From NCBI GenBank assembly GCA_019638635.1, contig JAHBTM010000011.1, positions 1 to 50,856 on the forward strand: a stretch of DNA of 50,856 bases. Reading direction: 5' to 3'. The position numbers and the translations under genes were made by a program. How positions within the stretch are numbered: position 1 is the first letter of the stretch; each line of letters opens with the position of its first letter. Positions 6,823 through 44,142 of the stretch are shown in pieces. The notes below the pieces were generated by a model. That model saw only the letters and a list, made by a program, of their open reading frames with translations. It was not told the DNA's origin and made no database searches. Origin of the DNA: Ferruginibacter sp. (lineage in GTDB: Bacteria > Bacteroidota > Bacteroidia > Chitinophagales > Chitinophagaceae).

Positions 6823-8427
6823 TTAAACCAGCATCCGCACCGGTTGTTCCATCATGGCTTTCAGGGTTTGCAGGAAGGCTGCACCTAGGGCGCCATCTAC
6901 ACTGCGGTGATCACAACTGAGGGTAACCGTCATTACCTGGGTTATGCCAAATCCGTCGCCTTGTTTTACTACCAATTCCTTTATGCGCCCAATGGCCAGG
7001 ATGCAGCTATCCGGCGGGTTGATGATAGCAGTAAAGGAATCTATATCCATCATGCCCAGATTGGAAATGGTAAAGGTGTTTCCTGAAAACTCCTGAGGCT
7101 GTAATTTTTTGTCGCGCGCTTTACCATACAATTCCTTAGTTTCTGCGGCAATTTGCGAAAGGGTTTTATGATCGGCAAAACGAACCACGGGCACAATCAA
7201 ACCATCCGTAACTGCTACTGCAGTGCCAATATGTATGTGGTGGTTATGTCGTATGAAATCGCCCATCCAGCTGCTGTTTACATCGGGGTGTACGCGTAAG
7301 GCAGCAGCGCAGGCTTTAATAATCATATCGTTGAAAGATATTTTCACCGGGCTCACCGCATTCATGGCTTCACGGGCTGCTATGGCATTGTCCATGTTTA
7401 TTTCCATGGTCAGATAAAAATGCGGTGCCGTGTACATACTTTCACTCAGGCGGCGTGCAATGGTTTTACGCATTTGCGACAGTGGGGTGTCAGTATAACG
7501 TTCTTCCATACCCGCAGTTGTAACGGCGGCCACTCCCGCAGAAGCAGGTGTAGCTGTTTTACCGGGTTGATAGGATTCCACATCTTTTTTGGTGATTCTG
7601 CCTCCATCTCCCGAACCGGATAGGGCCGAGAGGTCAATGCCCTTATCTGCTGCCATTTTTTTGGCAAGTGGAGATGCCTTAATGCGTCCGCTATCAGAAA
7701 CATTGTTTTCAGCTTCCGCAGGTTCAGTAGCAGCGGGAGCAGTGGCAGCAGCGTGAGGCGCTGCAACTTTTGGAGAACCACCGGATGTTTGTGTTTGTTT
7801 TTCATACTCCACATATGCCGTAACATCTGTTCCCGGTTTTCCAACAATGGCAATAATTTCATTCACCTTAGCGGCTTTACCGGCTTCTACGCCCACATAC
7901 AACAAGGTGCCCGCTTCATATCCTACCACTTCCATGGTGGCTTTATCGGTTTCTACTTCGGCCAATACATCATCACTTTTAACCGTATCGCCAACTTTTT
8001 TATGCCAGGCAACAATTTTTCCTTCCGTCATGGTATCGCTCAATAAAGGCATACGGATTTCTTTGGCTCCGGCAGGGAGCTGAACCACTTCAGTTGCAGG
8101 AGCCTTCTCCTTGACGGGTTCCGGTGCTTTTTCCTTTTGGGTGCTGCCGGTAGCAGGTTGCTCGTTCAGCAACTGCTGATAATCTTCTCCTTTTTTACCA
8201 ATAATGGCCAGAATACCATCAATAGGTACTGATTTCCCTTTATCAACCCCTATATACAAAATGGTTCCCTGCTGATAACTTTCCAGTTCCATGGTGGCTT
8301 TGTCAGTTTCCACATCGGCCAATACATCACCGGGCTTTACGGTATCGCCCACCTTTTTATGCCAGGCAGCAATCACCCCTTCTGTCATGGTATCACTCAA
8401 TCTGGGCATACGAATCACTTCAGCCAT
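6823..8427 (-). CDS. pdhC: Pyruvate dehydrogenase complex E2, dihydrolipoyl acetyltransferase
   Basis: The 534-residue protein has the domain order of E2 enzymes. Two lipoyl domains carry ETDKATMEL and ETDKATMEV, with the lipoylated lysines near 43 and 162, separated by an Ala/Pro/Lys linker. An E3-binding peripheral domain lies at about 248-287 (ASPLAKKMAADKGIDL, GSGDGGRITKKDV). The catalytic core covers about 305-534, with the DHRSVDG active-site motif near 506-512. It transfers acetyl groups from lipoamide to CoA in the cytoplasm. An oxo-acid dehydrogenase of another type is possible, but the two lipoyl domains and motif set best fit pyruvate. The E1 and E3 genes are not in the window. Confidence 0.92.
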   Translation of the reverse strand: MAEVIRMPRLSDTMTEGVIAAWHKKVGDTVKPGDVLADVETDKATMELESYQQGTILYIGVDKGKSVPIDGILAIIGKKGEDYQQLLNEQPATGSTQKEKAPEPVKEKAPATEVVQLPAGAKEIRMPLLSDTMTEGKIVAWHKKVGDTVKSDDVLAEVETDKATMEVVGYEAGTLLYVGVEAGKAAKVNEIIAIVGKPGTDVTAYVEYEKQTQTSGGSPKVAAPHAAATAPAATEPAEAENNVSDSGRIKASPLAKKMAADKGIDLSALSGSGDGGRITKKDVESYQPGKTATPASAGVAAVTTAGMEERYTDTPLSQMRKTIARRLSESMYTAPHFYLTMEINMDNAIAAREAMNAVSPVKISFNDMIIKACAAALRVHPDVNSSWMGDFIRHNHHIHIGTAVAVTDGLIVPVVRFADHKTLSQIAAETKELYGKARDKKLQPQEFSGNTFTISNLGMMDIDSFTAIINPPDSCILAIGRIKELVVKQGDGFGITQVMTVTLSCDHRSVDGALGAAFLQTLKAMMEQPVRMLV

Positions 8428-8501: not shown

Positions 8502-10262
8502 TCAATAATGCAGCGAAAGTTTCAATTCATCTTTCAGCAGGGCAACCAGCGGATATGCTTCCGCTAACTTCTGAAACTGCTGGCGCGGACCCATCACATG
8601 CTCTGTAGGCGCGTTATGGGTTTCGTTCTCCTCCAGCAAAAACTGAAAGGTGAGTTTACGGTTATTATATGCTTGCTGAAAGTAATCTATCCACTTTACT
8701 TTTTCCGATTCAATGAATGTTTGTTGCAAACCCGAAGTAACCTTTATCTGAAACATAGAATCTGAAATGGGAGAAACTTCTGCTGTTTTAAAATGAAACT
8801 GCGCCGCGTTTTTTTCAGTAAACAATGTTTGTGTGAACTGTTCCCAATGGTGTTGTAGTGATTCCTGTGTAAGAGGTATTTGCTGAGCGTTGGCCTTATT
8901 TTGAACTTGTACTTTTTCTTTAATCTTTTTCAGGCTCAGTGTGGGAGAGGCCGGCTTCGGTGCAACGTCTTTGGTTTCTGTGTTAACCGGTTTTGTAGTT
9001 GTGGTTTCAACATACAATTTAGGTGCAGGCGTTTTAGCTGCTACGGGCACTTTCCCGGCAGGGGCAGTAACCGGTAATGGTTGGGGGCCAATGGTGCGGA
9101 AGGCAAGAACCTTATTGCTATGCGCTATTTTTTTTTTTGAAACCCCATCTTCTTCTACCAGTTCCAGTGCTTGTTGCAGGTAACACAGTTTAATAAGGGT
9201 GAGTTCAACCTGAAGTTTTTTATTGCGTGCCTGTTTGTATTGTACGGAAGATTCGGTGAGCACATTCAATGCAGAAAGCAACCATCCCATCGACATCTCC
9301 TTCGCCGTACTGAGGAAGGTGGCTTTAAAATCTTCTGCCACTTCCAGCAATGCCACCGATTTTTCATCCATGCTAACCAACAAGTTTCGGATGAATTCAG
9401 CAAAGCCATCTAGAAACACATCGCCCTCAAAACCTTTCTGGTTAATTTCTTCAAACAACAGCAGTATATGGGGTAGTTGCTGTTGTTTAATCATTTCAAT
9501 CAATTTAAAATAATACGCTTCATCCAGTATGTTGAGGTGTTCCAGAGTATTAGCGTACTCCAGTTTACCATTTGTAAAACTGACAATTTTATCGAGCATA
9601 CTCAAAGCGTCGCGCAGGCATCCTTCACTCTTCATAGCAATCACATGCAGGGCTGCATTTTGTGCTTCTATGTGTTCCTTTTCACAGATTTCCCGCAAAT
9701 GATGCACGGTATCATCCGGCGTGATGCGTTTAAAATCGAATATCTGGCAACGGCTCAGGATGGTGGGCAATATTTTATGTTTCTCGGTAGTAGCGAGGAT
9801 GAAAATGGCGTACGGAGGAGGTTCTTCGAGTGTTTTCAAAAAGGCGTTGAAAGCCGCAATGCTCAGCATGTGTACCTCATCTACAATATATACTTTGTAT
9901 TTACCGGCCTGAGGGGCAAAGCGCACTTGCTCCACCAGCGAACGGATATCATCCACGGAGTTGTTGCTGGCAGCATCCAGTTCATGGATATTCATGGAAG
10001 TGCCATTGTCAAATGAAATACAACTGTTACAGGTGTTACACGCTTCGGTATCGGAAGTGCGGTTTTCGCAGTTGATGGTTTTTGCCAATATGCGGGCGCA
10101 GGTTGTTTTACCCACACCACGCGGCCCACAGAATAAAAAGGCATGCGCCAGTTGGTTCTGACGGATGGCATTTTTCAATGTGGTGGTGATATGTGATTGC
10201 CCGATAACCGTATTAAAATTCTGCGGACGGTATTTACGGGCCGATACTACAAACTTTTCCAT
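8502..10262 (-). CDS. dnaX: DNA polymerase III clamp-loader subunit gamma/tau
   Basis: The 586-residue protein is the ATPase of the replicative clamp loader. Visible motifs are the Walker A GPRGVGKTT (46-54), a zinc-binding cysteine cluster CNTCNSC near residue 80, Walker B VDEVHML and the TLEEPP motif. The clamp-loader core ends near residue 370, and a Pro/Thr/Lys-rich linker leads to a tau-specific C-terminal domain. An uninterrupted A11 run (plus-strand T 9128-9138) encodes S375-K376-K377-K378-I379 exactly at the end of the core. Losing one A gives a stop right after K378; gaining one gives Asn-Ser-Ala-stop. This could yield a gamma-length product, as transcriptional slippage does in Thermus dnaX. 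The gene lies upstream of the E2 gene on the same strand. Confidence 0.95.
   Translation of the reverse strand: MEKFVVSARKYRPQNFNTVIGQSHITTTLKNAIRQNQLAHAFLFCGPRGVGKTTCARILAKTINCENRTSDTEACNTCNSCISFDNGTSMNIHELDAASNNSVDDIRSLVEQVRFAPQAGKYKVYIVDEVHMLSIAAFNAFLKTLEEPPPYAIFILATTEKHKILPTILSRCQIFDFKRITPDDTVHHLREICEKEHIEAQNAALHVIAMKSEGCLRDALSMLDKIVSFTNGKLEYANTLEHLNILDEAYYFKLIEMIKQQQLPHILLLFEEINQKGFEGDVFLDGFAEFIRNLLVSMDEKSVALLEVAEDFKATFLSTAKEMSMGWLLSALNVLTESSVQYKQARNKKLQVELTLIKLCYLQQALELVEEDGVSKKKIAHSNKVLAFRTIGPQPLPVTAPAGKVPVAAKTPAPKLYVETTTTKPVNTETKDVAPKPASPTLSLKKIKEKVQVQNKANAQQIPLTQESLQHHWEQFTQTLFTEKNAAQFHFKTAEVSPISDSMFQIKVTSGLQQTFIESEKVKWIDYFQQAYNNRKLTFQFLLEENETHNAPTEHVMGPRQQFQKLAEAYPLVALLKDELKLSLHY
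9128..9138 (-). promoter_or_regulatory. A11 slippery run inside dnaX
   Basis: Eleven consecutive A residues on the coding strand, followed by TAGCGCATAG. In the main frame this reads Ser-Lys-Lys-Lys-Ile. Both other frames reach TAG within four codons, giving predicted products of 378 or 381 residues. That slippage happens is inferred; the run and the stops are read directly. Confidence 0.6.
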
Positions 10263-44058: not shown

Positions 44059-44142
44059 ATAAAAAATTTTTTTTTTGAAAATTCAGTCCAAACCTCCTAC
44101 CCAAATTTAATCAAAAAAAAGAGGGTTTTAAAGCCTGCCGGT

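Follow-up and report, generated by a model that had tools for sequence, protein, structure and literature searches.

It is known for Thermus thermophilus that dnaX is decoded by slippage on a run of nine A, and gamma and tau are made in about equal amounts (PMC5009743, PMC1088944). According to Baranov et al., a large share of genomes shows selection at a run length of nine, and slippage that gives a truncated product is hard to judge by sequence comparison (PMC1088944). The GeneTack survey of 2013 listed 17 two-ORF dnaX genes, of which 12 had poly-A, nine of these A10, and slippage was proposed for them; all 17 were −1 transitions, three Chlorobi are named in its text, and some of the others may be Bacteroidetes (PMC3711429). 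In E. coli dnaX, the slippery site A_AAA_AAG is accompanied by a stem-loop and, upstream, by an SD-like element (PMC3711429). In Caulobacter, too, one gene yields DnaX in two sizes, as proposed here, but its gamma is made by proteolysis of tau and a slippery run is not needed (PMC5009743). The importance of the short gamma is disputed even in E. coli (PMC10850973).

The DNA analyzed here (the window) is a stretch of 50,856 nucleotides from Ferruginibacter sp., and its dnaX gene is organized as follows:

8502 to 10262, minus strand: dnaX, DNA polymerase III gamma/tau subunit, 586 aa plus stop (model matches, Foldseek)
9147 to 10262, minus strand: clamp-loader core (ATPase, lid, collar domain III), residues 1–372, common to the long and the predicted short product (Pfam, profile, pLDDT)
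8934 to 9149, minus strand: probably disordered linker, approximately residues 372–443, starting at the A11 run (AlphaFold model)
8505 to 8933, minus strand: tau-specific C-terminal part, residues 444–586, missing from the predicted short product (AlphaFold model)

The encoded protein matched TIGR02397, the dnaX N-terminal model, with 434.4 bits (cut-off 250) over residues 6–360, and its core matched PF13177, PF22608 and PF12169, with domain III reaching residue 364. The top Foldseek matches of its AlphaFold model, which was built from 85 aligned sequences, were gamma/tau chains of the E. coli clamp loader. In the profile alignment, core profile positions 3–359 corresponded to residues 2–356 of E. 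coli gamma (1jr3_A), a chain of 373 residues. Residues 11–370 of the model had pLDDT blocks of 88–98, and the last collar helix ended at residue 371. The linker behind it showed pLDDT blocks of 44–69 and was modeled without secondary structure up to residue 444, and residues 444–586 formed a second folded part. This tau C-terminal domain weakly matched DnaA domain I (profile E 0.0014; Foldseek E 0.05, prob 0.99); lower in the same weak list stood DciA entries and 5fku_E, a chain of the E. coli polymerase III complex (E 1.3). DnaA domain I and DciA are both partners of the replicative helicase, and the domain may correspond to the polymerase- or helicase-binding region of tau. Downstream of dnaX, the gene at 6823–8427 (minus strand) presumably encodes a protein of the pyruvate dehydrogenase E2 type, in which two lipoyl-like repeats are recognizable.

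A sequence-only reading of the window had placed eleven consecutive A directly after Ser375 of dnaX, where the core ends and the tau-specific part begins, with a stop in either slip frame. The run and its stops are located as follows:

9128 to 9138, minus strand: A11 run, putative slippery site, spanning codon 375 (third base) to codon 379 (first base) (TCA AAA AAA AAA ATA; from the sequence)
9125 to 9127, minus strand: TAG stop reached by loss of one A or gain of two (sequence reading)
9118 to 9120, minus strand: TAG stop reached by gain of one A or by a −1 ribosome shift (sequence reading)

The run was found exactly at this position, and the two ends proposed for the slip frames were reproduced by recomputed translation. 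With A10, the product ends as ...SKKK-stop, immediately after K378 (378 aa, 42.8 kDa); with A12, it ends as ...SKKK-NSA-stop, i.e., after Asn-Ser-Ala (381 aa, 43.1 kDa); and with A11, the full tau is read (586 aa, 66.3 kDa). The TAG stops thus follow the run after 0 and 3 codons, one per other frame. The proposed placement was borne out as well: since the last collar helix ends at residue 371 in the AlphaFold model and the region of about residues 372–443 is of low confidence and unstructured, the A11 run lies at the boundary between core and tau part. A short product would consist of the clamp-loader core and a few further residues.

With Thermus dnaX, as it is described in the cited papers, the window gene has in common a single ORF for tau, a pure A run and close stops in both other frames. 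It differs in the length of the run (A11 instead of A9) and in its location, which is the end of the collar domain at residue 375 of 586 in the window gene and about seven-eighths along the coding sequence in Thermus; moreover, slippage is known to occur in Thermus and is a prediction for the window gene. With E. coli dnaX, the common features are gamma and tau from one gene and an A-rich site behind the core. The window gene differs from the E. coli gene as described in that its A run is pure and longer, no structure signal was detected and stops are close in both frames.

The run is not improbable by chance in a single window. In shuffled versions of the window, 0.62 A11 runs were expected versus 1 observed, and 29 of 100 shuffles held one; likewise, 5 matches of A9 were observed versus 4.34 expected. 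Rarity of the run in one sequence was dropped as an argument because both values are near chance expectation, and the evidence presented below is therefore comparative. In the draft genome (2.57 Mb in 127 contigs), 14 runs of at least ten A were counted on both strands, and the dnaX run was the only A run longer than ten. The second A run of the window, an A10 at 44067–44076 (minus strand; L165), was within no open frame of at least 110 codons. Elsewhere in the same genome, an A10 at G000:C51:22206–22215 (plus strand; L170) lies at about codon 441 of a 502-codon open frame (...SITQKKKFISIP...) and is possibly another slippage site, and an A10 at G000:C91:9073–9082 (minus strand; L174) lies late in an open frame of 352 codons, at about codon 321 (...PTRKKKPLSG...).

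For the comparison, 327 distinct dnaX genes of Bacteroidota were collected from named genome records and from further genomes of the genus, order, class and phylum. The named-record loci were the best 80 of at least 592. In one set of relatives, 54 of 59 genomes matched (G005, G030 and G039 were left out); in another, 156 of 158 matched (G070, G074, G096, G130, G158, G207 and G203 were left out). In the same-phylum set, 116 of 118 genomes matched and 46 were taken, hand-picked to spread over families and thus not a random draw. The same-class genomes G257, G268, G299, G335 and G346 were not part of the sample, L083, L335 and L337 were left out because their core match ended too early, and seven loci identical over 200 bases around the site were merged. 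For each gene, the longest A run was scored in a region of 90 codons that began 15 codons upstream of the end of the core match and extended 75 codons past it. One run-bearing gene, L126, was cut by a contig end, and frame counts therefore refer to 286 of 287 genes; seven of these 286 runs lie beyond residue 390 and may represent another site (L030, L136, L288, L297, L298, L334, L354).

A run of A9–A12 near the core end was present in 287 of the 327 genes. In upstream windows of equal size from the same genes, at least nine A occurred in 0 of 981 cases, and in the next downstream window in 4 of 281. Other open frames of at least 200 codons in the named loci contained eight runs of at least nine A and one of at least nine T in 279,426 bases. 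The run was found in 260 of 283 genes inside the class of the window, named records included, and in 27 of 44 outside this class but in the same phylum. The nearest sets (named records, mostly Chitinophagaceae; same genus or family; the window itself) held it in 105 of 109 genes. An A9 with tau in frame 0 is carried, for instance, by Hydrotalea sandarakina (L048), Terrimonas ferruginea (L022), Segetibacter koreensis (L041) and Flavisolibacter ginsengisoli (L042). The concern that close relatives might break the run by AAG codons, raised along with the original proposal, was thus answered by a run that most of them keep. Exceptions among Chitinophagaceae were Ginsengibacter hankyongi (L013), with A8 followed by G and both other frames still stopping within five codons, and L036, with only A7. 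Overall, 40 of the 327 genes had no run of at least nine A in the core-end region, 17 of them among the 44 genes outside the class. All sampled members of families f49 (L203, L220, L227, L254) and f60 (L213, L219, L233) had neither A9 nor a T run longer than four in this region.

The position of the run was narrowly defined, with a median start at residue 376 in the numbering of the window and the middle 90% between residues 367 and 386. Run lengths of 9, 10, 11 and 12 were observed in 72, 187, 26 and 1 of 286 genes, respectively. The start of the run fell on codon phases 0, 1 and 2 in 68, 114 and 104 genes, and the peptides encoded by it differed (VKKKL, EKKND, EKKSP, VKKKR, EKKKP). The free codon phase indicates that the nucleotide run is kept, rather than one peptide.

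As an explanation that involves no recoding, the run might be a by-product that arises where an A+T-leaning gene encodes a lysine-rich peptide. This is considered very improbable, although several observations are compatible with it. In the remainder of these genes, AAA accounts on average for 70.5% of the lysine codons, an A11 is by itself not rare in the window, and genes without the run are somewhat richer in GC (0.478 vs. 0.421 with the run). The run became less frequent with rising GC: below a core GC of 0.35, it was present in 35 of 37 genes. At a core GC of at least 0.60, it was still present in 7 of 12 genes, which argues that composition alone does not account for it; the variation in peptide and phase likewise speaks against the by-product. 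When synonymous codons were redrawn from each gene's own usage, at least nine A were expected in 91 of 229 run-bearing genes but observed in 229 of 229 (z 20.5). Since this redraw was limited to run-bearing genes (229 of the 230 frame-0 genes), i.e., genes chosen for having the run, the z value is inflated, and the upstream and downstream control windows were relied on instead.

The surroundings of the run were also informative. In 262 of 286 genes, a stop is reached within ten codons after the run in each of the two frames besides the long one. At control positions in frame-0 genes, such a double stop within ten codons occurred in 27% (core) and 25% (tau part). The tau part followed the run in frame 0 in 230 genes, in the frame reached by one additional A (or two fewer; +1A) in 50 genes and in the frame reached by one A less (or two more; −1A) in 6 genes. 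Hence, core and tau part lie in different frames in about one fifth of the genes (56 of 286). That the frames behind the run encode genuine tau was supported by a tau C-terminal profile built from frame-0 genes alone: the frame of at least 60 codons after the run matched it (E < 0.001) in 226 of 230 frame-0, 48 of 50 +1A and 6 of 6 −1A genes. Both the enrichment of double stops and the out-of-frame tau parts count against a mere peptide by-product. These 56 genes may be annotated as truncated or broken dnaX.

The two-ORF poly-A dnaX genes of the GeneTack survey correspond to the +1A default, whereas the −1A form is absent from the 17 genes as its text describes them. The GeneTack arrangement, with tau in another frame than the core, is found in 56 of 286 relatives; in contrast, the window gene is one ORF with tau in frame 0, and a frameshift finder would presumably not flag it.

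The default frame has changed repeatedly. On a FastTree tree of the core proteins, at least 31 changes between default-frame states were counted. Among the 27 coded genera represented by at least two run-bearing genes, 23 were uniform and four were mixed (g61, g103, g142, g147). The uniformly +1A genera were g36 (5 of 5), g78 (3 of 3), g45 (2 of 2) and g89 (2 of 2). In L074, an A9 is found where relatives with near-identical flanks have A10, and the default product changes accordingly. The run cassette is also carried by single-contig genomes, namely L115, L138 and L153, the last of these in the +1A form.

An error of assembly or sequencing in the run length would be a trivial source of such differences, and the genome of the window is indeed a draft of 127 contigs. 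However, A11 keeps the reading frame in the window gene, as A10 does in its sister L085, and the single-contig genomes show the cassettes as well. The uniformly +1A genera together with the single-contig L153 make clear that sequencing error cannot explain the +1A class, and for the window run such an error is regarded as extremely improbable. A DNA-level hypermutable tract, in which replication slippage would vary the run length from cell to cell (phase variation), would fit the unequal run lengths of close relatives such as the window (A11) and L085 (A10), the A9 of L074 amid A10 in near-identical contexts and the mixed defaults in four genera. The uniform default of the other 23 genera, four of them +1A throughout, stands against it. 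dnaX is an essential housekeeping replication gene, and this role was counted against phase variation, too, which is thus given very little credence. The indels in the run rather look like a consequence that is tolerated by two-product decoding. Taken together, the double stops, the free phase and the switching of the default argue for selection for two products.

Two products could also be obtained by programmed −1 ribosomal frameshifting as in E. coli, with the ribosome slipping on A_AAA_AAA of a homogeneous mRNA and stopping after NSA. Several observations are compatible with this unlikely, though not negligible, alternative. A_AAA_AAR was present in the 0 frame of all 286 runs, as it must be in any A9, and was A_AAA_AAG in 48 of these. 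Examination of 30 of the 33 tRNA loci revealed one tRNA-Lys(UUU), as in E. coli; the number of tRNA-Lys genes (two in Thermus, one in E. coli; PMC5009743) was tried as a discriminator and, with this result, proved unhelpful. SD-like motifs were slightly enriched within 20 nt upstream of the run versus control (n = 143; AGGAG 5 vs. 0, AGGA 17 vs. 7, GGAG 16 vs. 11). Ribosome sliding on AAA runs has been reported (PMC4363877). In the window gene, a T follows the run and the 0 frame contains no A_AAA_AAG, but A_AAA_AAA is present; with one tRNA-Lys(UUU), ribosomal frameshifting is thus possible as a contributor there.

Other properties of the cassette are not explained by E. coli-type frameshifting. 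Ribosomal frameshifting needs seven bases, while the 286 genes carry 9–12. No fold signal was detected in folding energies after the run (mean z −0.45 in 142 genes vs. −0.68 in 143 controls; fold and SD-motif analyses were run on every second run-bearing gene), and the window dnaX likewise showed no stem-loop signal there (fold z −0.37). Stops are close in both directions in the 262 genes with double stops, and the six −1A genes need a shift of the opposite sign for tau, which −1 ribosomal frameshifting cannot give. Transcriptional slippage, on the other hand, leads one to expect pure runs of at least nine bases, in any codon phase, with stops in both other frames and with defaults that need a shift of either sign. 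The pure runs of A9–A12 without a structure signal therefore point to slippage of RNA polymerase rather than to frameshifting of the E. coli type.

Thus, the A11 run of the window is likely, with good confidence, to be a Thermus-type site of programmed transcriptional slippage that yields gamma and tau. RNA polymerase copying the run would produce messages with A11 (and A14 and so on) besides messages of other lengths. Translation of messages in the templated frame would give tau of 586 aa, which comprises the core, the linker and the C-terminal domain. In a message longer or shorter by one A, the ribosome would reach a TAG within four codons, and the resulting gamma-like protein of 381 or 378 aa would be the clamp-loader core alone, ending at the start of the linker. 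Gamma and tau would both enter the clamp-loader ring, so that not every DnaX arm would bear the C-terminal domain. Slipping of the polymerase at the run, accumulation of gamma and its role in the ring are inferred steps of this model. The gamma-like product suggested by the sequence-only reading is well supported by the comparison of sequences, and it is very probable that slippage of RNA polymerase lets the cell obtain DnaX in both sizes from this single gene.

A description of the run throughout Bacteroidota was not found in the literature search, which covered the text of the GeneTack survey (PMC3711429) but not its supplement. The window gene seems to join the known kind of poly-A dnaX, and the breadth of its occurrence, the majority of frame-0 genes and the repeated switching of the default seem to be new. 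For most Bacteroidota, the comparison moderately favors a dnaX that is indifferent to its reading frame: slippage would occur so readily that tau and gamma are made whatever frame is encoded, and indels in the run could drift and switch the annotated product.

The combination of run, phase, double stops and default switching allows slippage that truncates a product to be judged by sequence comparison. The presence of a two-product cassette in most of the sampled genes, with a default that switched repeatedly, is evidence for selection of both forms. If the frame-indifferent reading is true, a slippage cassette in a core replication gene has persisted through most of a phylum, and having both DnaX forms would be under long-term selection.
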